Below, in pieces: positions 2,062 to 21,893 of a stretch of DNA of 64,000 nucleotides (the first letter of the stretch is position 1; every line of letters begins with the position of its first letter). A program made the position numbers and the translations under genes. The DNA lies in NCBI GenBank assembly GCA_023384095.1, contig JAHDXT010000008.1, forward strand, positions 1 through 64,000, read 5' to 3'. This DNA is from Hyphomicrobiaceae bacterium. Its GTDB lineage: Bacteria; Pseudomonadota; Alphaproteobacteria; Rhizobiales; Hyphomicrobiaceae. A model generated the notes under the pieces. It was not told where the DNA came from and did not search any database. It saw only the letters and a list, made by a program, of their open reading frames with translations.

Positions 2062-3072
2062 TCAGATCTTGAGCTGGGAGATGAACGGCTTCATCTTGTT
2101 GGTCGACTCGTCCCAGATCTCCTTCACGTTCTCCTTCGTGATGAACGGCGACTGGAACAGGATCTCCTTCGGCACGCTCTTGCCCTCGAGGATCCTGGCG
2201 GCGACCTCGACGCCTTCGACGCCCATCGGCGTGTACTGCCAGGTGCCGTGGACGTCGCCCCGGTTGATGGCCGCCATCATCTCCGCCTGGATGCCGTCGT
2301 ATCCGGTGATCATCATGCCCTTGAGGCGGCCGGCCTCCCTGGCGGCCTGCATCGCGCCGAGCGCCATGTCGTCGTTGTTGCAGTAGACGCCGTCGATCTC
2401 CCGCTGCGACTGCAGGAAGTCCTCCATCCGGCGCAGCGCCTGCGAGCGCTCGTAGTTGGCGACGGCGTGGCCGACGATCTTCATGCCGCTCTTCTCGACG
2501 ACCTCGCGCCAGCCTTTCGAGCGCTCCTGATTGACCATCGAGCCGGTCTTGCCCTCGATCTGCACGACCTTGGCCGAGGACCCGAGCTTGTCGACGTAGT
2601 ACTTGCCCGCGTTCCGGGCCGTACCGAGGTTGTCGGCCGCCAGACGGCACGTCCAGTTCGCGTCGCCGACGAGCGAGGAGGACAGGACCACGATCGGGAT
2701 GCCGGTCTTGTTGATCTCCTTGACCGCCGGCGTGATGGCCTCAGCGTAGTAGGTCGAGATGATGATGAGGTCCATGCCGCGCGTGACGAAGTCCTCGAGG
2801 TCCTGGACCTGCTGCGAGGGCCGGTCCTTCGCATCCGACACGCTGACATTGAGGCCGAACTTCTCGGCCGTCTCCGTCACGCCGCGGCGCTGGGTGACGA
2901 GCCACTCGATGGTCGAGAAGCTCATCGAATAGCCGACCTTCTTTCCGGCGACCGACGACTGCGCGAAGCCGGAGCGCGCGACGAAGGGGGCGCCGAGGGC
3001 GATCGCGCCCGTGGTGGCCGCGGCGGTTTTCAGGAACTGGCGCCGGGACGCCGTCATATCGAGCTTCTTCAT
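2062..3072 (-). CDS. Sugar ABC transporter substrate-binding protein (ribose-type periplasmic binding protein)
   Basis: Lower part of ORF 2062..4032 starting MKKLDMTASRRQFLKTAAATTGAIALGAPFVARSGFAQ (Tat-like signal) followed by type-I PBP sequence; alternative start at 3090. Confidence 0.88.
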   Translation of the reverse strand: MKKLDMTASRRQFLKTAAATTGAIALGAPFVARSGFAQSSVAGKKVGYSMSFSTIEWLVTQRRGVTETAEKFGLNVSVSDAKDRPSQQVQDLEDFVTRGMDLIIISTYYAEAITPAVKEINKTGIPIVVLSSSLVGDANWTCRLAADNLGTARNAGKYYVDKLGSSAKVVQIEGKTGSMVNQERSKGWREVVEKSGMKIVGHAVANYERSQALRRMEDFLQSQREIDGVYCNNDDMALGAMQAAREAGRLKGMMITGYDGIQAEMMAAINRGDVHGTWQYTPMGVEGVEVAARILEGKSVPKEILFQSPFITKENVKEIWDESTNKMKPFISQLKI

Positions 3073-3092
3073 GGTTTTCCTTCCCTTCATGT

Positions 3093-4094
3093 CTACTTCT
3101 TCACTCGTGAGCGGATATCGCTCATGATCACCGCGACGACGATGATCACTCCCTGCAGCAGCATCTGAACGAATGGCGATATTCCGAGCAGATTCAGGAT
3201 GTTGCCCAGGATCGCCAGGATCAGGATGCCCAGGATGGTGCCGTGCACGCCGCCGATGCCGCCGTCGAAGGTGGTGCCGCCGATGAGCGCGGCCGAGATG
3301 GCGTCGAGCTCGATGAGCTGGCCGGCGTTCGGCTCGGCGACGGTGAGCCGGCTGACCAGGATGATGCCGGCCACCGCGGCGAGCAGGCCGCTGATCGCGT
3401 AGATCTTGATCTTCATCCAGTCGACCGCGATGCCGTAGAGGCGGGCGGCGTCCTCGTTGGCGCCCACCGCATAGACATGGCGCCCGAACCGCAGGCTCCC
3501 CAGGGCGTAGGCGGCCGCGGCCCAGACCAGCGCGGCGATGATGACCGGCACCGGAACCGGCCCGACGTAGCCGGACCCGATGAACAGGAACCACTCCGGC
3601 GGGTTGCGCACGACGATGTTGGCTCCGTCGGTGACGATGTAGACGAGGCCGCGCGCGAAGATCAGCATCGCCAGGGTGGCGATGAAGGGCTGCAGCCGCG
3701 CCTTCGTGATCAGCACGCCGTTGACGGCGCCGAGCACCGTGCCGGCAGCGAGCGCCGCCGGGATCGCCAGCGCGGGGCTCAAGGGCGCCATGATGCCGGT
3801 GACCATGGCCGCGACGCCGAGGATCGACCCGACCGACAGGTCGATCCCCCTGCTCAGGATCACGATCGTCATGCCGATCGCCACGACACCCATCGGGGCG
3901 GCGCCGCGCAGCAGGTTCATGATGTTGCGGACTTCGAAGAAATAGGGGGACGCGACCGCCGCCGCCGAGATCAGGATCACCAGCGCCACGACGTGGCTGT
4001 ACTGCAGCAGCAGCTGCTTCACCGATTTCCACGACTGCCGCCCGCCCGCGGCGGCACTTCCGGCCATGGCATTCTCACTCCATTGGACGCTCAT
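3093..4094 (-). CDS. Sugar ABC transporter permease (RbsC-like)
   Basis: 333 aa hydrophobic protein; GMTIVILSRGIDLSVGSILG motif typical of RbsC/XylH permeases. Confidence 0.9.
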   Translation of the reverse strand: MSVQWSENAMAGSAAAGGRQSWKSVKQLLLQYSHVVALVILISAAAVASPYFFEVRNIMNLLRGAAPMGVVAIGMTIVILSRGIDLSVGSILGVAAMVTGIMAPLSPALAIPAALAAGTVLGAVNGVLITKARLQPFIATLAMLIFARGLVYIVTDGANIVVRNPPEWFLFIGSGYVGPVPVPVIIAALVWAAAAYALGSLRFGRHVYAVGANEDAARLYGIAVDWMKIKIYAISGLLAAVAGIILVSRLTVAEPNAGQLIELDAISAALIGGTTFDGGIGGVHGTILGILILAILGNILNLLGISPFVQMLLQGVIIVVAVIMSDIRSRVKK

Positions 4095-4165: not shown

Positions 4166-4180
4166 GAAAATCGTTTTTTC
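4166..4180. promoter_or_regulatory. Candidate LacI-family operator 1
   Basis: GAAAATCGTTTTTTC, CG-centred imperfect palindrome, upstream of the permease/SBP/transketolase operon. Confidence 0.7.
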
Positions 4181-4301: not shown

Positions 4302-4316
4302 GAAAACCGTTTTTTC
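4302..4316. promoter_or_regulatory. Candidate LacI-family operator 2
   Basis: GAAAACCGTTTTTTC immediately 5' of the GGAGG Shine-Dalgarno of the 4327 CDS. Confidence 0.7.
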
Positions 4317-4326
4317 GGAGGATTAA

Positions 4327-5256
4327 TTGTCCATCCCAGCAAATGCGGCCGCGGGCGCGCGACGGTTGGAGAAGGTGCAGAGCCTTGCGGACGCGGCCGG
4401 CCTCGTCGCGGACGGCTGCCGCATCGCCATCGGCGGCTTTGCGATCTACCAGCGGCCCATGGCCTTCGTGCGCGAGCTCGTCCGGCAGCGGCGGAAGGGA
4501 CTGACGGTCGTCGGCGTCACCAACAGCATCGACACCGACATGCTGATCGGGGCGGGCGCGGTGCGCCGCGTCGAGACGAGCTACGTCGGCTTCGAGAAGT
4601 ACGGGCTCGCGAGGAACTTCCGCCGCGCCTGCGAGCGGGACGGCCTCGACGTCGTCGACTACCCGGAGCTGCTGAGCTGGGACCGCTTCCGCGCCAGCCA
4701 GGAGAACCTGGCGTTCTGGCCGGCGCCAGGGCTCGGCGGCACCGACGTGGTGCGCCTCAACGCCGACATCCGGCCGTTCACCTGCCCGGCCTCGGGCCGC
4801 CCCCTTCACGCGCTCCCGGCCGCCGCGCCGGACGTCGTCGTCCTCCACGCCCTGGCGTCCGACGTCTACGGCAACGTGATCTTCCCGCCCTACCGGAACC
4901 TGCCGCAGAACCTCGATCTCACCCTGGCGAGGTGCTGCGACAGGCTGATCGTCACGGTGGAGCGGATCGTCAGCGAGAACTTCCTGCGGCGCCATTCCCA
5001 CCTGGTGGAGATCCCGTCCGTCCGGGTGAGCGCCGTCTGCGTGGCGCCTTTCGGGGCCCATCCCACGTCCATGCTCGGCCGCTACGAGGACGATCAGGCG
5101 CACTGGCAGGCCTATGTGGACGCATCGCAGACGGACGAGGGCTTCCGCCGCTACCTCGACGACTACGTGCTCGGGCTCGACAGCCACGCCGCCTACCTGG
5201 ACAAGGTGGGCGGCTCGCGCCTCGCTTCGCTCTTCCAGGTGGACACCCAGAAATGA
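4327..5256 (+). CDS. CoA-transferase-fold subunit A (glutaconate CoA-transferase alpha / IpdA-like)
   Basis: 309 aa; family-I CoA-transferase-like sequence (RPMAFVRELVRQ..., APFGAHPTSMLGRYEDDQAHWQAYV); TTG start with good SD. Confidence 0.82.
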   Translation: MSIPANAAAGARRLEKVQSLADAAGLVADGCRIAIGGFAIYQRPMAFVRELVRQRRKGLTVVGVTNSIDTDMLIGAGAVRRVETSYVGFEKYGLARNFRRACERDGLDVVDYPELLSWDRFRASQENLAFWPAPGLGGTDVVRLNADIRPFTCPASGRPLHALPAAAPDVVVLHALASDVYGNVIFPPYRNLPQNLDLTLARCCDRLIVTVERIVSENFLRRHSHLVEIPSVRVSAVCVAPFGAHPTSMLGRYEDDQAHWQAYVDASQTDEGFRRYLDDYVLGLDSHAAYLDKVGGSRLASLFQVDTQK

Positions 5257-6086
5257 CCGCGACCGACTTCACCCTCAACGAGCTCCTGGTCGCCAACCTG
5301 GCGCGCGATCTCAGGGACGGCGAGCTCGGCTTCACCGGCCTCGCCACGGGCAGCGCCGCCGCGCTCTATGCCACCGCGATCCCGCTCGTCGCGATGGAGC
5401 TGGCCCGGCGGCTCCATGCGCCCAATCTCACCGTCCTGCTGGCGGGCTGGGTGCACAATCCCGATCTTGCCGCGCTCGACGAGCTCCCCGACGCCGAGTT
5501 CGACGAGCGGCTGCGCGACCTGCCCTGCGAGTCCCAGCTCCTCACCTATCCCGGCCAGTTCAGCCTGAGACGGGGCAACATCAGCTTCGGCTTCGGGTCC
5601 GGCGTCCAGATCGACCGCGTCGGCAACATCAACAGCGTGTGCATCGGCGACCATGCGAAGCCGAAGGTCCGCCTCGTCGGTCCCATCCTCCTGCCGGAGC
5701 ATTTCTCCATGTTCGGGCGCGAGTACGTCATGATGCCGCGCCACGACAGCCGGACCATCGTCGAGAAGGTCGACTACGTCGCCGGCGTCGGCTACCCGGG
5801 CGGCCTCGAGGGCCGCAAGGCGCTGGGCCTCGCCTGGGGCGGCCCGGAGCTCGTCATCACGCCGAAATGCTTCTTCGACTTCGACAAGGCCGCGGGGCGG
5901 ATGACGGTGCGCTCCATCCACCCCGGCGTGGACATCGACGACCTGCGCGCGTCCACCGGCTTCGATCTCGGCGACCTGGCGGCCGTCCCGGTCACGCCGG
6001 CCCCGACGTCCCGGGAGCTCTCCATCATCCGCGCGGAGATCGATCCGCGCGGCATCCTGATCGGGAACGGGCCACGCGCCGGCTGA
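5253..6086 (+). CDS. CoA-transferase-fold subunit B (glutaconate CoA-transferase beta / IpdB-like)
   Basis: Starts MTATDFTLNELLVANLARDLRDGELGFTG, ATGA overlap with the A subunit; within ORF 4269..6086; catalytic Glu position appears to be Ala. Confidence 0.82.
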   Translation: MTATDFTLNELLVANLARDLRDGELGFTGLATGSAAALYATAIPLVAMELARRLHAPNLTVLLAGWVHNPDLAALDELPDAEFDERLRDLPCESQLLTYPGQFSLRRGNISFGFGSGVQIDRVGNINSVCIGDHAKPKVRLVGPILLPEHFSMFGREYVMMPRHDSRTIVEKVDYVAGVGYPGGLEGRKALGLAWGGPELVITPKCFFDFDKAAGRMTVRSIHPGVDIDDLRASTGFDLGDLAAVPVTPAPTSRELSIIRAEIDPRGILIGNGPRAG

Positions 6087-6145: not shown

Positions 6146-6994
6146 ATGATCACCGGCCGCACGAAGCTGTTCTGTATTGTCGCCGACCCGATCGAGCATG
6201 TGAGGACGCCGCAGATGTTCAATGCACATCTGGAGAGCGTCGGGATCGACGCGGTGCTCGTTCCCGCCCACGTCACGTCCGACAGGCTGCCGTCGCTCGT
6301 GTCCGGCCTGCGGCACTGCGAGAACCTGCTGGGCATCGTCGTCACGCTGCCGCACAAGATCGCGATCGTGGACCTGTGCGACGAGCTGCACGGCACGGCC
6401 CGCCTGGCCGGTGCGGCCAACATTCTGCGGCGCGAGCCCGACGGACGCCTCACGGGCGCGAACTTCGACGGCATCGGGTTCCTGCGGTCCCTGGAGGAGG
6501 TGGTCGCCAGCGTGCGGGGCAGAAGCGTGTACCTGGCCGGCGCCGGCGGCGTCGCCCGCGCCATCGCCTTCAGTCTCGCCGGCGCCGGAGCGAGCCGGCT
6601 TTCGATCTGCAACCGCTCCGAGGCGAGGGCGGCCGAGCTTCTGGACGCGGTCAGGAGGCAGTACCCGGACGTGATCACCGGCCTGGCGGGCGGCGCGCCC
6701 GAGGGCTGCGACATCGCGATCAACGCCACGCTCCTCGGCCTGCGCGCGGACGATCCGCTCCCGTTCTCGGTCGATGCGCTGCCGCCGCACGCGGTGGTCG
6801 CCGACGTGGTCATGGAGCCGATCATGACGCCGCTGCTGAAGACGGCCCGGCGGCGGGGCCTGAACATCCTGACCGGGGATGCCATGCTGCGGTTCCAGCT
6901 CGGACTGTGGGTGGAGTTCATCGCAGGCGGTCCGGCGGCTCCCGCGCTCTCCAACGGCGCCGCCGCCGCCGCGACGCTCGCCCCCAAGGCCTGA
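6146..6994 (+). CDS. Shikimate dehydrogenase-like (AroE family) oxidoreductase
   Basis: 282 aa; VTLPHK, NFDGIGF and YLAGAGGVARAIAFSL Rossmann motif; catabolic context. Confidence 0.85.
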   Translation: MITGRTKLFCIVADPIEHVRTPQMFNAHLESVGIDAVLVPAHVTSDRLPSLVSGLRHCENLLGIVVTLPHKIAIVDLCDELHGTARLAGAANILRREPDGRLTGANFDGIGFLRSLEEVVASVRGRSVYLAGAGGVARAIAFSLAGAGASRLSICNRSEARAAELLDAVRRQYPDVITGLAGGAPEGCDIAINATLLGLRADDPLPFSVDALPPHAVVADVVMEPIMTPLLKTARRRGLNILTGDAMLRFQLGLWVEFIAGGPAAPALSNGAAAAATLAPKA

Positions 6995-7014
6995 TTTTCG
7001 GAAAGCTGACCGCC

Positions 7015-8091
7015 ATGCTGGTTTTCGGCGCGCCCGCCCGCTACGTCCAAGGCCCCGGAGCCCTCGCCTCGATCGGCGAGGAGCTGGGCCGGCTCGGCCG
7101 CTCGGCCGTGCTCCTCATCGACCGCGGCGTTGCCGGCCGGCTGCTGCCGGCCATCGAGCGGAGCTGCGGCGCGGCCGGCGTCGCGCTGACGGTGCTGGAG
7201 TTCGCGGGCGAGTGCTCGCCCGAGGCCATCGAGGACCTGGCGGGCCGCCTCGGCTCCGCGCGGCCGGCGATCGCCGTGGCTGCCGGCGGGGGCAAGTGCA
7301 TCGACACGGGCAAGGGGCTCGGCAAGCGCCTCGGCGCCAGGATCGTCACGGTCCCGACGATCGCCTCGAACGACTCGCCCACGAGCCACATCTATGTCCT
7401 CTACGATGCCGACCACCGGCTGCTCAGCGTCGAGAAGCTGGAGCGCAACCCGGACCTCGTGCTGGTCGATACGGACGTGATCGTCCGTGCCCCGGCGGTG
7501 TTCCTGCTGGCCGGCATCGGCGACTGCCTCGTCAAGAAGTACGAGGTCGAGGCCTGCGTGCAGTCCGGCGGCCGCAACGTCTTCGGGTCGGAGCCGTCGC
7601 TGGCGGCGCTCGCCATGGCGCGCGGCTGCTACGATATCCTGCGCGAGGATGCTGAGGCCGCCTTGGAGGCGGTGGCCGCCGGCACGGTCAGCCCGGCGTT
7701 CGAGCGGGTCGTGGAAACCTGCATCCTGATGTCCGGCCTGAGCTTCGAGAACGGCGGGCTGTGCATCGCCCACGCCATGACGCGCGGCCTGTCGGCGGTG
7801 CCGGCCGTCGCGCATACGCTGCACGGCCTGCAGGTCGCCTACGGCATCACGGTCCAGCTCGCCCTCGAGGGCCGCGACCCGGACTTCATGCGCGACCATG
7901 CCGGCTTCTACAACCGGGTCGGCCTGCCGGCGACGCTCAAGGCGCTCGGCCTTGCGGACCCGTCTCCCGACGTCTTCGACGTGATCGCCGACGCGACGCT
8001 CGGCGTGGTCCACATGCAGAACTTTCCGCGGTCGGTGTCGAAGGCGGAGTTCGTCGCGGCTATGCGCGATGTCGAGGAGAGATTCGGCTGA
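7015..8091 (+). CDS. Iron-containing alcohol dehydrogenase, glycerol dehydrogenase (GldA)-like
   Basis: 358 aa starting MLVFGAPARYVQGPGALASIGEEL; GGGKCIDTGKGLGKRLG and VPTIASNDSPTSHIYVLY motifs. Confidence 0.85.
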   Translation: MLVFGAPARYVQGPGALASIGEELGRLGRSAVLLIDRGVAGRLLPAIERSCGAAGVALTVLEFAGECSPEAIEDLAGRLGSARPAIAVAAGGGKCIDTGKGLGKRLGARIVTVPTIASNDSPTSHIYVLYDADHRLLSVEKLERNPDLVLVDTDVIVRAPAVFLLAGIGDCLVKKYEVEACVQSGGRNVFGSEPSLAALAMARGCYDILREDAEAALEAVAAGTVSPAFERVVETCILMSGLSFENGGLCIAHAMTRGLSAVPAVAHTLHGLQVAYGITVQLALEGRDPDFMRDHAGFYNRVGLPATLKALGLADPSPDVFDVIADATLGVVHMQNFPRSVSKAEFVAAMRDVEERFG

Positions 8092-8127: not shown

Positions 8128-8820
8128 TCACGCGATGCCGTAGCCCCCGTCGACGGGCAGGATGACGCCCGTAACGTAGCGCGCTGCGTCGGAGAGCAGG
8201 AAATCGACCACGTCCGCCACGTCGGCCGGTGTCCCCCACCTCTTCAACGGCAGCCGCGCCATGATGGCCGTGCTCCGCTCCTCGTTCCGGATCGCCCCGG
8301 CCGACAGGCGCGTGTCGATCCACCCCGGCGCCACCGCGTTCACCCGGATGCCGTCGGGCGCGAAGGCCACCGCCAGCGATCGCGTGAGCTGCACCACCGC
8401 GCCCTTGCTGGCCGCGTAGCCCGGATTGCGGCTCGAGCCGAAGAAGCTCCACATCGAGGCGATGTTCACCACGGCGCCCTTGCCGGCGACCAGCGCCGGC
8501 TTCAGGGCCATGGTCACGATGAGGCCGGACGCAACGTTCACGTCCATGACGCGGCGGAACCCGTCGGCCTCGAACTCGCGGCCATCGTGCAGGATCATGC
8601 CGGCACAGTTCACCAGCGCTGACAGAGCCGGGAACTCGGCGGCGAAGCGCGCGACCTCGCCGGCGTCGGTCACGTCGAGGCGCTGGAACTCGATGCCGGC
8701 CGGAAGGTACTCGTCTCGGTCGATGCCGCAGCACACGACCCGGCCCTGCGCCGCCAGCTTCTCGGCGCACGCCCGCCCTATGCCGGTGCCCCCGCCCGTC
8801 ACGATCGCCACCTTGGTCAT
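8128..8820 (-). CDS. SDR family oxidoreductase
   Basis: 230 aa; TGGGTGIG cofactor motif, NCAG, YAASKGAVVQLTRSLA, C-terminal VDGGYGIA. Confidence 0.9.
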   Translation of the reverse strand: MTKVAIVTGGGTGIGRACAEKLAAQGRVVCCGIDRDEYLPAGIEFQRLDVTDAGEVARFAAEFPALSALVNCAGMILHDGREFEADGFRRVMDVNVASGLIVTMALKPALVAGKGAVVNIASMWSFFGSSRNPGYAASKGAVVQLTRSLAVAFAPDGIRVNAVAPGWIDTRLSAGAIRNEERSTAIMARLPLKRWGTPADVADVVDFLLSDAARYVTGVILPVDGGYGIA

Positions 8821-8871: not shown

Positions 8872-9651
8872 TCAGTGCTGCGTGGTGTTCACCGGCCGCC
8901 CGCTTACGATCATGCTGACCACCTGGTCGTGGTCCACGCCGGCGGTCTCGACCACGTCGACGAGGTTGCCGTTCTTCATCACGGCGATCCTGTCCGCCAC
9001 CGTGAAGACGTGCTCCAGGTTATGGCTGATGATGAGCACAGCAAGGCCCTTGGCCCGCAGGCTGTTGATCAGCTCCAGGACCTTCCGGCCCTCGTCGACG
9101 CCCAGCGCCGCCATCGGCTCGTCCATGATGAGCAGCTTGACGTCCTCGAGCAGCAGGCGGGCGATGGCCACCGACTGGCGCTGGCCGCCCGACATGGAGC
9201 GCACGGGGGCGTCGATGGCCGGCAGCTTCAGGCCGATCCGCTCGAGCAAATCCAGGGTCTGCTTGCGCATGCTGGCGCGGTCGAGCGTCGGGAAGATGCC
9301 GAAGCGCCGGGTCTGAAGCTCGCGCCCGAGGAAGATGTTCTCCTGGACGTTGAACACGTCGATCAGGCCGAGATGCTGGTGCAGCGTCTCGATGCCGTGC
9401 TTCCTGGCATCGGTCGGACCGCTCAGCCGGACGTCATGCCCCTCGATCCGGATCGAGCCTTCGTCGGGCACCATCACGCCGGCCAGCATCTTGATGAAGC
9501 TCGATTTGCCGGCGCCGTTGTCGCCGACCAGCGCCACCACCTCGCCCCTGCGGATGTCGAGCGAGACGGAATTCACGGCCTTGAGACCGCCATAGCTCTT
9601 GCTCAGTCCACGCACGGACATGAGAGCGTCTGTCGCGGCGGCCGTGTTCAT
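8872..9651 (-). CDS. Sugar ABC transporter ATP-binding protein
   Basis: Starts MNTAAATDALMSVRGLSKSYGGLKAV; Walker A GDNGAGKSS, signature SGGQRQSVAIARLLL, Walker B LLIMDEP; part of ORF 8872..10470. Confidence 0.92.
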   Translation of the reverse strand: MNTAAATDALMSVRGLSKSYGGLKAVNSVSLDIRRGEVVALVGDNGAGKSSFIKMLAGVMVPDEGSIRIEGHDVRLSGPTDARKHGIETLHQHLGLIDVFNVQENIFLGRELQTRRFGIFPTLDRASMRKQTLDLLERIGLKLPAIDAPVRSMSGGQRQSVAIARLLLEDVKLLIMDEPMAALGVDEGRKVLELINSLRAKGLAVLIISHNLEHVFTVADRIAVMKNGNLVDVVETAGVDHDQVVSMIVSGRPVNTTQH

Positions 9652-9710
9652 CTCTGCTGGTGTCACCTGCTGCTCCTCCCGAGACTGCGGGCCCGCTTCC
9701 TGCGCGCCCT

Positions 9711-10661
9711 TCACTGGCCGATGGCCCAACCGACCGCGGCCGACGTGCCCTGGGCATTGGTCGACCAGAACTCCACCCCCTTCGAGCCGTCGGGATTGAT
9801 GGTGCGGACCACGGCCCGGCACTCGATCGTCTCCCCGCTCTTGACGGGAGACAGGAACGTGGCGCCGAGCCGGCCTCCCGACAGGAACCCAGGGCCGAAG
9901 AACGAGACCATCATTTCCGAGAACCAGCAGACCTGAATCATGCCCGACATGATGGTGCTGTCGAAGCCGGCCTCCCTGGCCACGTCCGGGTCGGTGTGGA
10001 TGTTCTTCCAGTTTTCGTTGGCGCCGACGAACATGGACATCTGGTCCTGGTGGATCGTCTTCCTCAGAACGGGCAGCGGCGTGTCCGGTGCCGTCACGTC
10101 GGCAGCGCGCGCTGCGGGTGCGCGCCCGGCGGGCCATTCGCCGCTCACGCGCCGGGCCGACAGGCCGTCGGCCTCCCGCTGCGGGACGTCCTCGAGGGGC
10201 ACATCCGAGCTCACGATCTCGACGCTGCGCTGCCGGACCAGGAGATGGCCGGCTGCGTCCCGTGCCTCGCCGTCGAGCACGACGCAGGGTCGCCCCTTGC
10301 GCACGAACTTGTCCGTGTAGCGTCCCGTCAGCGAGATGGTCTCGCCGAACGGCACCGGGGCGTGGAACCAGACGTCCTCCTTGAGGTGCACGGCCTTGAT
10401 GCCCTGCGGGTCGTAGCCTTCCATGAAGATATGCAGCAGCTTCTTGGCGATGCCGGACGAGTGCGCCCACGGCCCGCAGGTGCCCGGAGCCCGGAAATAG
10501 GGCGGGCTCCAGTCGTCCACCGCGAACGCGAATCCCTTGACGAAATGGTCGTCCACCGGGAACCGCACTGGACCGAAGCTCTCCCCGACGTCGATGGCCT
10601 GGTATGATTGCTGTTTCAAGTTGTCGTCTCCGCTAAGGCACTTGACCGGGCGTGCGCGCAA
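9711..10661 (-). CDS. MaoC-like hotdog-fold protein (two hotdog-like halves; acyl-CoA hydratase/dehydratase family)
   Basis: 316 aa ORF; N-half ...PFGETISLTGRYTDKF..., C-half ...NIHTDPDVAREAGFDSTIMSGMIQ...; TTG start at 10661 or 10619, start uncertain. Confidence 0.72.
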   Translation of the reverse strand: MRARPVKCLSGDDNLKQQSYQAIDVGESFGPVRFPVDDHFVKGFAFAVDDWSPPYFRAPGTCGPWAHSSGIAKKLLHIFMEGYDPQGIKAVHLKEDVWFHAPVPFGETISLTGRYTDKFVRKGRPCVVLDGEARDAAGHLLVRQRSVEIVSSDVPLEDVPQREADGLSARRVSGEWPAGRAPAARAADVTAPDTPLPVLRKTIHQDQMSMFVGANENWKNIHTDPDVAREAGFDSTIMSGMIQVCWFSEMMVSFFGPGFLSGGRLGATFLSPVKSGETIECRAVVRTINPDGSKGVEFWSTNAQGTSAAVGWAIGQ

Positions 10662-10671
10662 CGCTTATCTA

Positions 10672-10686
10672 GAAAATCGTTTTTTC
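10672..10686. promoter_or_regulatory. Candidate LacI-family operator 3
   Basis: GAAAATCGTTTTTTC, identical to operator 1, in the divergent region between the maoC-like gene and the CaiB-type gene. Confidence 0.7.
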
Positions 10687-10743: not shown

Positions 10744-11931
10744 ATGACGGGCGCGCTCCACGGGCTTCGCGTGCTCGACCTGTCGCGCTACATCGCCGGC
10801 CCCTACTGCGGCATGCTGCTGGGGGACATGGGCGCCGACGTCGTCAAGGTCGAGACTCCGGAACGGGGCGAGAATACCCGCACGTTCCATCCCCGGATTG
10901 GCGACGAGAGCATCTACACGATGGTCTTCAACCGCAACAAGCGGGGCATGACGCTGAACTTCCGCAGCGCCGACGGCCAGGGGACCCTGCGCGACCTGAT
11001 CAAGGCGGCCGACGTGGTCGTCGAGAACTTCCTGCCGGGCACGCTCGAGAAGATGGGCTGCGGCTGGGAGGAGATGCGCAAGGCCAACCCGCGCCTGATC
11101 ATGACCCGGATCTCCGGTTTCGGGTCCACCGGCCCCTATTCCGGCGAGCCCTGCTTCGACCTGATCGCGCAGGCCATGTCCGGGCTGATGGACCTCACCG
11201 GCGAGCGGCAGGGTCCTCCCACCATGGCGGGCACTTTCATCGCCGACTACACCTCGGCCCTCTATGCCACGATCGGCACTCTTGGTGCCGTGCACAGCCG
11301 CGAGAAGACGGGAGCCGGCCAGCTCGTCGAGACCACGCTCCTCAACAGCGCCGTGTCGCTGCTGGTTACGGCCATCCCGAACCAGATGCTGTTCGGCAAC
11401 GAGACGACCCGCAACGGCAACCGCGACCGATTCGTGGCGCCGAGCAACACGTTTCCGACCAGGGACGGCGAGTGGATCATCTTCCAGGCCTCCGGCGAGG
11501 ATAAGTTCGCCTTTCTGGCCAACGCCATGAGTCGCCCGGATCTCGTCGAGGATCCGCGTTTCTCGACGAACGCCGCCAGGCTGGCCAACGCCGAGGAGCT
11601 GGAAGCCATCATCACCGGCTGGTCAAGCACGCACGGCACCGAGGAAGTCCTCGCCGTCATGAAGGCGGGCAAGATCCCCAGCACCAAGGTCGCCACCGTC
11701 GCCGACGTGATCGAGAACCCGCAGATCACCCATAACGAGCAGATCTTGTGGCTGGATCAGGCGGGCGGCAAGGTCCCGGTGCAGGGCTTCACCGTCAGGT
11801 TCGGCAACACCCCGATGAAGCTGCGGTATTCCGCGCCGTCGGTCGGGCAGCACACCGAGGAGGTCCTGCGGGAGTGGGTCGACTACTCACCCACAGCGAT
11901 CGCCCGGCTACGCGAGGTGAAGGCGATCTGA
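10744..11931 (+). CDS. CaiB/BaiF family (family III) CoA transferase
   Basis: MTGALHGLRVLDLSRYIAGPYCGMLLGDMGADVVKVE and NRNKRGMTLN motifs; within ORF 10537..11931. Confidence 0.93.
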   Translation: MTGALHGLRVLDLSRYIAGPYCGMLLGDMGADVVKVETPERGENTRTFHPRIGDESIYTMVFNRNKRGMTLNFRSADGQGTLRDLIKAADVVVENFLPGTLEKMGCGWEEMRKANPRLIMTRISGFGSTGPYSGEPCFDLIAQAMSGLMDLTGERQGPPTMAGTFIADYTSALYATIGTLGAVHSREKTGAGQLVETTLLNSAVSLLVTAIPNQMLFGNETTRNGNRDRFVAPSNTFPTRDGEWIIFQASGEDKFAFLANAMSRPDLVEDPRFSTNAARLANAEELEAIITGWSSTHGTEEVLAVMKAGKIPSTKVATVADVIENPQITHNEQILWLDQAGGKVPVQGFTVRFGNTPMKLRYSAPSVGQHTEEVLREWVDYSPTAIARLREVKAI

Positions 11932-12486: not shown

Positions 12487-13548
12487 CTAATCGGCCGGAA
12501 CGGGCGCCGCCCCCGACGTCGCACGCACCACGAGCTCGGTCGGAATGATGATCCTACTGATCGGTGCGTCTCGATTGTTGATCCGCGAGATCAGCACCTT
12601 GGCGGCGGTCGCGCCCACGGTCCATTTCGGATGCCGCAGCGTCGTGAGACTGGCCCAGGGCATCGCCGACACGAAGATATCGTCGATGCCGATAATCGAT
12701 ACGTCCTGCGGGATCCGAAGTCCGAATTCCTGGATGGCCTCGATGGCGCCGAGAGCCATCAGGTCGTTGCCGCCGATAATGGCCGTTGGACGCTTAACCA
12801 TGGCGAGCATCCGGCGTGCCGCTTTCGCCCCGGACGTGTAGCTCCAGTCGCCCGGCTGGACCAGCTTCTCGTCGTGGCCTCCCGCCAGCGACTCCATCGC
12901 TTTGACGAAGCCGTCGTACCGGTCCTGTGCGGCGGTCGAGCCTTTCCGGCCCTGTATGAAACCGATCCTGCGGTGTCCGAGCCCCCAGAGGTACTCGCAG
13001 GTCTCCTTCATCCCGCTGATGTTGTCGACACCCACGTAATCGGTCACCGTCCCGGGATAGCGCTGGTTGATCATGACCAGCGGCAAGCCTTCCTCGACCA
13101 TACTCAGAATGTCGTCGGACTTCTGGATCTGTGACGCGATGACGATGCCGTCCACCTGCTGATCCCTGAGGATCTCGATGTAGGTCCTTTGCTTGTCCTC
13201 CCTGTAATCCGTATTGCAGAGGATCAGGTTGTATCCTTCCGTCGAGGCCACGTCCTCCACGCCCCGGACCAGTTCGGGAAAGAATGGGTTGGCGATATCT
13301 CCGACTAGGATGCCGATGGAATAGGTTCGGTGCGTTCTGAGGCTGCGGGCGATCTTCGACGCGCGATAGCCGACATCGGTCGCCGCCTTAAGCACCTTCA
13401 GGCGCGTCACATCGGAGACGTAGCGCCGGTTCGTGAGCGCGTTCGAGACCGTGGACAGGGCTAGCCCCGAGGCGTTGGCCACGTCCCTGATCGTGGCACG
13501 CTTCTGCCGGCGCGGACTTGCGGGCGCCCTTTTTCCGTCATCTGGCAT
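12487..13548 (-). CDS. LacI family transcriptional regulator
   Basis: 353 aa; HTH RATIRDVANASGLALSTVSNALTNRRYVSDVTRLKV plus sugar-binding-like effector domain. Confidence 0.93.
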   Translation of the reverse strand: MPDDGKRAPASPRRQKRATIRDVANASGLALSTVSNALTNRRYVSDVTRLKVLKAATDVGYRASKIARSLRTHRTYSIGILVGDIANPFFPELVRGVEDVASTEGYNLILCNTDYREDKQRTYIEILRDQQVDGIVIASQIQKSDDILSMVEEGLPLVMINQRYPGTVTDYVGVDNISGMKETCEYLWGLGHRRIGFIQGRKGSTAAQDRYDGFVKAMESLAGGHDEKLVQPGDWSYTSGAKAARRMLAMVKRPTAIIGGNDLMALGAIEAIQEFGLRIPQDVSIIGIDDIFVSAMPWASLTTLRHPKWTVGATAAKVLISRINNRDAPISRIIIPTELVVRATSGAAPVPAD

Positions 13549-13586: not shown

Positions 13587-13602
13587 CTAAAAACGATTTT
13601 TT
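13587..13602. promoter_or_regulatory. Candidate LacI-family operator 4 (autoregulatory)
   Basis: CTAAAAACGATTTTTT, reverse complement closely matches GAAAATCGTTTTTTC; about 40 bp upstream of the lacI-type start codon. Confidence 0.62.
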
Positions 13603-13756: not shown

Positions 13757-14575
13757 TCAGGCAACAACAACCACAGCCATTCCCGCTGTGATCAGTCCGA
13801 ACCCGAGCCAGGGCGTGAGCCGTGCGCCGAAGGGCGCCAGCTTCTCCACCAGCACGACCGCCGACAGGCCCGCGATCCACAGCAGGTTCATCACGCCGCC
13901 GGCGAACAGCAGCAGCATGAGCGCCCAGCAGCAGCCGAGGCAGAAGGCGCCGTGCTCGACGCCCATCAGGAAGGCGCCGCTGCGCCCTGGCCGCCAATGC
14001 CGCGACAGGTATGCGACAGGAGCGCGGCAGTGGCTGAGGCAGACGCCCTTCAAGGGCGAGAGCTGATAGAGCCCGGCAGCGACCAGAAGGCCGCCGGTCA
14101 GCCAGACATCGACGGACCCCATCATCATGCCGTCGACCGCGCCTGCGCGCTCCAGGCCCCACTCGAGCCCGGTCGCCAGAATGCTGAAGCAGAGCCAGAT
14201 CGCCAGGTAGCCGGCCGTGAAGGCGGCCGCCGGCACGGCGACGGTGCCGGCCGGTGCCCGGCGTGCAGCATGACGGGAAACCCGCGCGTGGAGCAGCACC
14301 ATCGGAGCCGCGCTCGGCAGCATCATGGCGATCATCATCGTCCACCACATGGCGACCATGACGAGCGCGTAGCCGGGTGTCCAATGGGCAGGGGTGGCCT
14401 CCATCATCATCGCGTGCGGAAGCCGCCAGCTCGTCATCGAGATGGCGCTCATGCCCGTTCCGCCGCCCGAGAGGACGTGCCCCCAGGCGAGGCCGATGAC
14501 AGCGCCCAGACCCGCAATGATGATGAGCTGCTCGCGTCTGAGCAGCGCCTCGGTTCTGGTCGTCGCCTCACGCAT
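13757..14575 (-). CDS. DUF2182-type predicted metal-binding integral membrane protein
   Basis: 272 aa, multiple TM segments, WWTMMIAMMLPSAAPMVLL and EHGAFCLGCCWALMLLLFAGGVMN. Confidence 0.8.
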   Translation of the reverse strand: MREATTRTEALLRREQLIIIAGLGAVIGLAWGHVLSGGGTGMSAISMTSWRLPHAMMMEATPAHWTPGYALVMVAMWWTMMIAMMLPSAAPMVLLHARVSRHAARRAPAGTVAVPAAAFTAGYLAIWLCFSILATGLEWGLERAGAVDGMMMGSVDVWLTGGLLVAAGLYQLSPLKGVCLSHCRAPVAYLSRHWRPGRSGAFLMGVEHGAFCLGCCWALMLLLFAGGVMNLLWIAGLSAVVLVEKLAPFGARLTPWLGFGLITAGMAVVVVA

Positions 14576-14596
14576 GGCCGCTCGTTCGTTCGCGCG

Positions 14597-15259
14597 CTAT
14601 GCCGCGGCAGGGCGGACGGACTGCTCGTCGATGATGCCGTAGGGACCGTAGGCCACGTAGCACAACGCGCCGTAGCGCTTCGACTGATCCATGGCGAGCT
14701 CCTCGCCGCCGGCCCTGAAGGTGGCGCTCGCCATCTCGGCGCTACGGAACTCGAAGCCGGTCGGCAGCACGATCTGCGCGAAGTGATCGGCGCCTGTGAC
14801 TGGGTTCTTGATCGGCTCGATCTCGAGCTTCAGAACGCCGGGTACGATGAAGCGGGCGGTACGCCTCTCGAAATCGCAGGCGAACGTCATCTCGGCGAAG
14901 ATGGGGTCGAGCTCGCGGGCGATCGTCGAGCCATAGATGTTGAACACCGTGGTGGGCTCCTGCTCCCGGCCGCCGAGGATCTGGAACAGGGCCTCGCGCT
15001 GGGCATCGCTGGCGCGGCTGTCGACGAAGCCCTGAACCGTGCCACGACCCTCGTGCACGGGGCCGGGCCAGCGGTAGCGGGCGCCGATCACGAGATCGTC
15101 GAGCCGGGTGTCTCCGAACCAACCCTCGTCGATGCGGTGCGCCTCCAGTCCCTCGCACCAGCCGTGCGTCGGCGGCGCATTGAACTCGCAAGGACAACCG
15201 TAGCTGCAGTTGCAGCCGCCGATCTTGGGGCCTTTGATCATCCAGTCGACATAGGCCAT
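14597..15259 (-). CDS. DUF1326-type protein
   Basis: 220 aa; Cys-rich N terminus GGCNCSYGCPCEF; adjacent to DUF2182-type gene. Confidence 0.8.
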   Translation of the reverse strand: MAYVDWMIKGPKIGGCNCSYGCPCEFNAPPTHGWCEGLEAHRIDEGWFGDTRLDDLVIGARYRWPGPVHEGRGTVQGFVDSRASDAQREALFQILGGREQEPTTVFNIYGSTIARELDPIFAEMTFACDFERRTARFIVPGVLKLEIEPIKNPVTGADHFAQIVLPTGFEFRSAEMASATFRAGGEELAMDQSKRYGALCYVAYGPYGIIDEQSVRPAAA

Positions 15260-20828: not shown

Positions 20829-20858
20829 CCTATTCGCTATTCGCTATTCGCTTCTCTG
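20829..20858. repeat. ATTCGCT short repeat cluster (family shared with 23230-23346)
   Basis: TATTCGCTATTCGCTATTCGCTT. Confidence 0.7.
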
Positions 20859-21893
20859 CAATGTGGTGCCGCTCGTTCCCCAGGTATCCGAAACGACATA
20901 GCCCTGCGGCCATGGATCGCTGGGATCGACGAAGTACTGATGCACACCCGTGATCCAGGCGCGGCCTTTGATGGTGGTCAGCACGGCTTCGGTACCGTTG
21001 ACCATGGTGGTGCCGAGGATGCGGCCCTCGAAGCGCGAGCCGATGATCGACTCGTGCGTGATGCCTTGGCCGACCCTGAGCAGGCCGCGCGCGTGGAGTG
21101 CCGCCATGCGGGCCGAGGTCCCGGTGCCGGTGGGGCTGCGGTCGGAGCGGCCCGGCGACACGATGCAGGTATTGCGGATCACCGCATCCGGCTCCGTGAA
21201 CGGGCAGGCGAACTGCACGATCGAGACGCCGCGGATCTGCGGGAGCTCAGGGTGCACGACCTCGTGCTGCTCGCGGGCGGCGATGCGGATCTTCTCTCCG
21301 AGGGCGGCGAGATCGCGCGCCTCGTGCGGCTCGACGGCGAAGCCCAGGGCCCGCGCATCCGCGATGGCGTAGAACATGCCGCCGTAGGCGATGTCGATGA
21401 GAATGGTGCCGTGGCCGGCGATCTCGAGCGGCGCGCCGAGCTTCGCTTTGAAGGCCGGCACATTGGCGATGGTGACGCTGACGCACTTGCCGCCGCGGCA
21501 CTCCGCGACGACATCCACCGGCCCGCCGGGCATGTCGAGGCGAAGCCGCGTCTCCGGCTCCTGCATCGGCACGATGCCGGTCTCCAGCAGGACAGTGGCG
21601 ATGCACATCGTATTGGAGCCCGACATGGGCGGGTACTCGGTCGGCTCCATGATGATGGCGCCGGCCTGCGCATCGGAGCGCGTCGGGGGCACGATCAGGT
21701 TGACGTGACGCGCGACCGAGCCGCGCGGCTCCTGGATCAGCATGCGGCGGATGTGGTCGTGCTGGCGCTCCATGGTGAGCTTCTTTTCGAGCATGGTGGC
21801 GCCTGCCGGCGGCAGCACGCCGCCGGTTATGACGTCGCCCACCTCACCCTCGGCGTGGCAGCCGACGACCGTGATCACGCGCGTGCTGCGCAT
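20844..21893 (-). CDS. Proline racemase / hydroxyproline epimerase-dehydratase family protein
   Basis: 349 aa; PPMSGSNTMC and SPGRSDRSPTGTGTSARMAALHA motifs. Confidence 0.9.
   Translation of the reverse strand: MRSTRVITVVGCHAEGEVGDVITGGVLPPAGATMLEKKLTMERQHDHIRRMLIQEPRGSVARHVNLIVPPTRSDAQAGAIIMEPTEYPPMSGSNTMCIATVLLETGIVPMQEPETRLRLDMPGGPVDVVAECRGGKCVSVTIANVPAFKAKLGAPLEIAGHGTILIDIAYGGMFYAIADARALGFAVEPHEARDLAALGEKIRIAAREQHEVVHPELPQIRGVSIVQFACPFTEPDAVIRNTCIVSPGRSDRSPTGTGTSARMAALHARGLLRVGQGITHESIIGSRFEGRILGTTMVNGTEAVLTTIKGRAWITGVHQYFVDPSDPWPQGYVVSDTWGTSGTTLQRSE

Follow-up and report, generated by a model that had tools for sequence, protein, structure and literature searches.

Glutaconate CoA-transferase (GctAB, 1poi) has a two-subunit layout and carries its catalytic glutamate in the B subunit, where Glu54beta corresponds to Gly57 of IpdB (PMC5380842), the B subunit of the COCHEA-CoA ring-cleaving hydrolase IpdAB, which has the same fold. 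When this residue of a class I enzyme is changed from glutamate to aspartate, the transferase becomes a hydrolase, and a change to serine abolishes both the transferase and the hydrolase activity (PMC12400318). Two other described proteins also do without the glutamate. The 3-methylglutaconyl-CoA decarboxylase AibAB has Cys56 of AibB at this position; its C56A variant is still active, Glu72 of AibB is the computed proton source, and the AibB loop contacts the substrate via Ala133 and Gly134 (PMC7756340). ThnP, a Cat1-type class I family protein of anaerobic naphthalene degradation, which was compared here by description, has Gly at the Glu position, yet moves CoA within its substrate (PMC11659651).

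A class I CoA-transferase-fold gene pair

In the window, that is, the whole 64,000-nt stretch of DNA analyzed, the gene of the A subunit (4327–5256, + strand) has a TTG start codon with GGAGG immediately 5′ of it, and shares an ATGA overlap (5253–5256) with the gene of the B subunit (5253–6086, + strand). Pfam, phmmer searches against the PDB, and Foldseek together identified the two as genes of a class I CoA-transferase-fold heterodimer. The A subunit matched Pfam CoA_trans (1.5e-15), and its AlphaFold model (pLDDT 72.6) gave TM values of about 0.7–0.8 to GctA, IpdA and AibA in Foldseek, those for IpdAB being about 0.75–0.80. B scored 21.7 against Pfam, slightly below the curated cut-off of 23, found no match in the NCBIfam search, and was assigned through its phmmer match to 1poi_B (8.5e-27), the ortholog alignment and the loop comparison; its AlphaFold model, made from five sequences, had a pLDDT of 50.6 and was left out of the structural comparison. 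In the PDB sequence search, glutaconate CoA-transferase was the top match of both subunits, followed by chains of IpdAB and AibAB, and both scored better against GctAB than against IpdAB.

The pair has orthologs, 60–67% identical to it, in Microvirga VF16, Shinella PSBB067, S. sumterensis, S. oryzae and Azospirillum argentinense plasmids, in a Pelagibacterales MAG and in two additional genomes (L060 and L061), one of the genes in the last two being truncated by a contig end. Searching 385 genomes of the class returned no ortholog apart from the window's own, while searches of two families returned 2 of 347 and 0 of 349 genomes, respectively. The A/B clade is rare. In a tree of 64 A subunits, the window clade (100/100) lay outside the Glu-type groups and was joined weakly (63/46) to IpdA and other Glu-less types. 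Judged from these sequence relationships, the window pair is probably not an IpdAB ortholog and forms a clade of its own.

Additional pairs of this fold were observed in the relatives. A second Glu-less A/B pair lies within the same clusters as the first at L039:4280-6008 and L040:963-2720, with RDFSE in A, YWGN in B and a CLAQPEH or SLAQPEH loop, and is a candidate second non-transferase clade. Three-gene A2-B2-A3 sets are present at L037:3889-6520, L038:4365-6888 and L060:12334-14793, of which B2 keeps the catalytic Glu (read for L060). In the Microvirga set, A3 carries Glu (HSE) at the position of residue 114 of A but lacks a dedicated B, and A3 may share a B subunit.

Active-site positions of the two subunits

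The original prediction had stated, on the basis of an APNL-type motif, that B lacks the expected catalytic glutamate, and both the motif (phmmer to 1poi; PMC5380842) and the absence held. Ala64 of B (codon GCG, 5442–5444, + strand), in the sequence HAPNLTVLLAGWVHNPD, falls gap-free on the Glu of the VESG motif in GCT-B, which is Glu54beta, and the catalytic Glu motif (ESG/EGG) of GctAB-type transferases is absent from window B. An alignment restoring an active-site Glu would have spoken against the prediction; phmmer pairs the GCT catalytic Glu with Ala64. By phmmer, Ala64 also aligns with Cys56 of AibB, a position that is Ala or Ser in the 5n00/5n02 variants. Ala64 is kept in 9 of 9 clade members read, seven of them rows of the ortholog alignment that includes the window and two from L060 and L061, and is therefore not a sequencing error. 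Since the Glu-to-Ser change kills both activities in an ordinary class I enzyme, the conserved Ala implies different chemistry.

The loop of the B active site is also replaced. Residues 143–150 of window B read GPILLPEH where the Gly-rich active-site loop (GxGG[AG]) is expected, a loop found as GGGGAPE, GTGGGND or GSGGAND in nearly all Glu-type B subunits; the corresponding stretch is GSGGAN in GctB, G-V-R-G-A-P-G-N in IpdB and, as matched through the phmmer alignment, GVAGAA in AibB. In the window clade, the loop follows the consensus G[PS]I-x-x-PEH, in which Glu149 and His150 never vary. The exceptions among the Glu-type B subunits, L047 and L051, combine a GEM motif with a GAANxSY loop and have Ala at position 114 of A, fitting neither group, and acyl-CoA dehydrogenase genes adjoin the pair of L051. 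A further residue of window B, Glu82, is confined to the window clade among the aligned sequences and aligns with Glu72 of AibB by phmmer, the MAFFT placement being one column off.

The A subunit supplied a second diagnostic position. The IpdA chains 6co6 (wild type) and 6coj differ in their aligned part by a Glu-to-Ala change at chain residue 117, and the PDB title of 6coj names an IpdAB E105A COCHEA-CoA complex. Window A aligns gap-free with this mutated residue through Glu114 in a DYPE motif (codon 4666–4668, + strand), the equivalent of IpdA Glu105, which is invariant among the aligned A subunits of the clade. In GctA and AibA this position is not Glu, being Gly in AibA. Among 47 non-redundant A/B pairs, Glu was found at A114 only in 8, at B64 only in 34, at neither in 5 and at both in none; these pairs share descent and are not 47 independent events, and a Fisher p-value calculated from them is no real probability. 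Pairs with Glu at B64 mostly have His, and sometimes Asn, at A114. Another Glu-less type was observed in L003 (G000:C93:3791-4243), L028, L031 and L026, in which Leu or Ile takes the place of the Glu in B and A114 is Cys (ATCP/STCP).

As the two glutamates never occur together in the 47 pairs, B has Ala64 and the Gly-rich loop is lost, classical CoA transfer is unlikely, and the pair is very probably no CoA-transferase of the glutamyl-anhydride route.

Gene cluster and operator-like sites

On the minus strand upstream of A lie the C-terminal (117–1106) and N-terminal (1110–1982) subunits of a split transketolase, an RbsB-type substrate-binding protein (2062–3090) and a CUT2-type, Rbs-like permease (3093–4094). 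Downstream of B, the plus strand encodes an AroE-like oxidoreductase of the shikimate dehydrogenase family (6146–6994; the genome has four copies) and a glycerol-dehydrogenase-like Fe-ADH (7006–8091; NCBIfam NF006941, 349 bits, above cut-off). These are followed on the minus strand by an SDR oxidoreductase (8128–8820), a single-domain CUT2-type ABC transporter ATPase (8872–9690) and a double-hotdog MaoC-type hydratase/dehydratase (9711–10661; Pfam MaoC and FAS1_DH), then by a CaiB/family III CoA-transferase (10744–11931, + strand), whose nearest solved relative is the succinate-hydroxymethylglutarate CoA-transferase SUGCT, and a LacI-family regulator (12487–13548, − strand). Quinate or shikimate as the substrate was considered and dropped, as there was no evidence for it and a 5-ketofructose reductase, too, belongs to the AroE-like family. 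Loss of the catalytic Asp from CaiB, suspected from an LLNS motif, was ruled out: the Asp position of formyl-CoA transferase (Frc), which we take to be Asp169, is the Asp of IADYTS and is conserved in every CaiB compared.

A 15-bp site, GAAAAYCGTTTTTTC, has three exact copies in the window, every one in a promoter region of this cluster, and does not occur elsewhere in the 4.58-Mb genome at ≤1 mismatch. The copies are located between the permease and A (GAAAATCGTTTTTTC, 4166–4180), directly upstream of A (GAAAACCGTTTTTTC, 4302–4316) and between MaoC and CaiB (10672–10686), and a degenerate copy with three mismatches lies upstream of lacI (13587–13601). By position, the sites link four units: the CUT2 transporter with the split transketolase; A/B with the AroE-like and glycerol-dehydrogenase-like genes; MaoC with the ABC ATPase and the SDR; and CaiB. 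The site is likely a LacI-family operator that delimits the regulon, with LacI as its putative binding protein, and the A/B pair is probably part of this LacI-type regulon. Two further genes were noticed in the window: a PpoB2-family copper chaperone gene (13757–15259) beside a DUF1326 gene just beyond the regulon, and a proline racemase family gene (20844–21893) between PurL-like and PurQ-like genes.

This gene association recurs in the relatives. A CUT2 permease lies near A/B, each time with CaiB, in Azospirillum, three Shinella loci, Microvirga and L060, and MaoC often recurs too. The Azospirillum and Shinella PSBB067 clusters add a TPP enzyme, DhaK and DhaL, where the window has the split transketolase instead. 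No MaoC or dehydrogenase was found in the stretch of the Azospirillum cluster examined, and the oxidation steps may therefore not be common to all clusters. At the Pelagibacterales locus, fadB and thiolase genes are located downstream of B, which would fit a beta-oxoacyl-CoA product, and they may be ordinary beta-oxidation genes.

Candidate chemistry of the pair

Taken together, Ala64, Glu114 of A, the lost loop and the presence of CaiB in an operator-defined cluster make a non-transferase acting on a CoA thioester a well-supported reading. For its mechanism, an IpdAB-like (retro-Claisen) hydrolysis of a C-C bond in an oxidized acyl-CoA is the single best candidate, with about an even chance. 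The original prediction had named an IpdAB-type hydrolase as a candidate. The missing Glu of B, Glu114 of A on IpdA Glu105 and the loss of the Gly-rich loop agree with it, and IpdAB-like hydrolysis is plausible, but membership in IpdAB itself is not supported: the pair is nearer GctAB, it belongs to a separate clade only weakly joined to IpdA, and no steroid genes surround it, their place being taken by the CUT2 transporter, LacI, CaiB, MaoC and transketolase.

Other activities have to be weighed against this hydrolysis. An AibAB-type decarboxylase, the next most likely reading and a serious rival, would decarboxylate a glutaconyl-like acyl-CoA via a dienolate, with Glu82 of B donating the proton. 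The active C56A variant of AibB, together with the phmmer match of Ala64 and the clade-specific Glu82 to Cys56 and Glu72, speaks for it; against it, AibA has Gly at the position of the invariant Glu114, the substrate-contacting loop of AibB is replaced and MAFFT shifts Glu82 by one column. AibAB also differs in its gene context. We consider a simple acyl-CoA thioesterase, which would hydrolyze the thioester and leave the C-C bond intact, to be improbable. Activation of water by Glu114 of A is possible, and class I enzymes do become acyl-CoA hydrolases by the Glu-to-Asp change, but that activity requires a carboxylate at position 64, with Ser being inactive (PMC12400318) and Ala present here. 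A dedicated thioesterase alongside a CoA-loading CaiB would presumably also be futile.

CoA transfer without the glutamate has a similarly small chance, for example a ThnP-like intramolecular transfer in which a dicarboxylic substrate forms an internal anhydride. The activity of ThnP shows that CoA transfer is compatible with the loss of the Glu by itself; here, however, the Gly-rich loop has gone too, Glu114 of A matches the IpdA pattern, and CaiB already supplies CoA transfer within the cluster. Loss of a catalytic residue would by itself permit a degenerate, inactive pair or a regulatory remnant, a reading that becomes very hard to maintain given the 60–67% identity across orders, the many residues that never vary, two intact ORFs that overlap, and a conserved gene association.

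If C-C hydrolysis is the activity, the cluster may be arranged into a pathway whose reaction, substrate and sequence of steps are all conjectural. A polyhydroxylated sugar-like acid would be imported by the CUT2 transporter and loaded onto CoA by CaiB, and the MaoC hydratase and the dehydrogenases would generate an oxo-thioester. Glu114 of A would then act as the base, with the CoA-thioester enolate sitting in the pocket vacated by the Glu and the Gly-rich loop, and cleavage of the C-C bond would yield an acid and a shortened acyl-CoA. Transketolase in the window, or the TPP enzyme and dihydroxyacetone kinase in the relatives, would take up small ketol fragments. It is tentatively possible, though doubtful, that the pair represents a new catalytic class on this fold, a C-C hydrolase using Glu114 of A and the Pro-Glu-His loop of B in a CoA-thioester-dependent, non-phosphorylative pathway for a CUT2-imported polyhydroxylated sugar-like compound.

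Were this pathway right, sugar-type import would be joined to CoA-thioester chemistry, a combination not found in the literature searched, in which no description linking these cluster gene types was encountered. Genes of the A/B type are labelled CoA-transferases in a deposited plasmid record, and this label is probably wrong for the window clade. The combination of A114 and B64 may distinguish true transferases from proteins of this fold that cleave C-C bonds, and can be applied to any genome.
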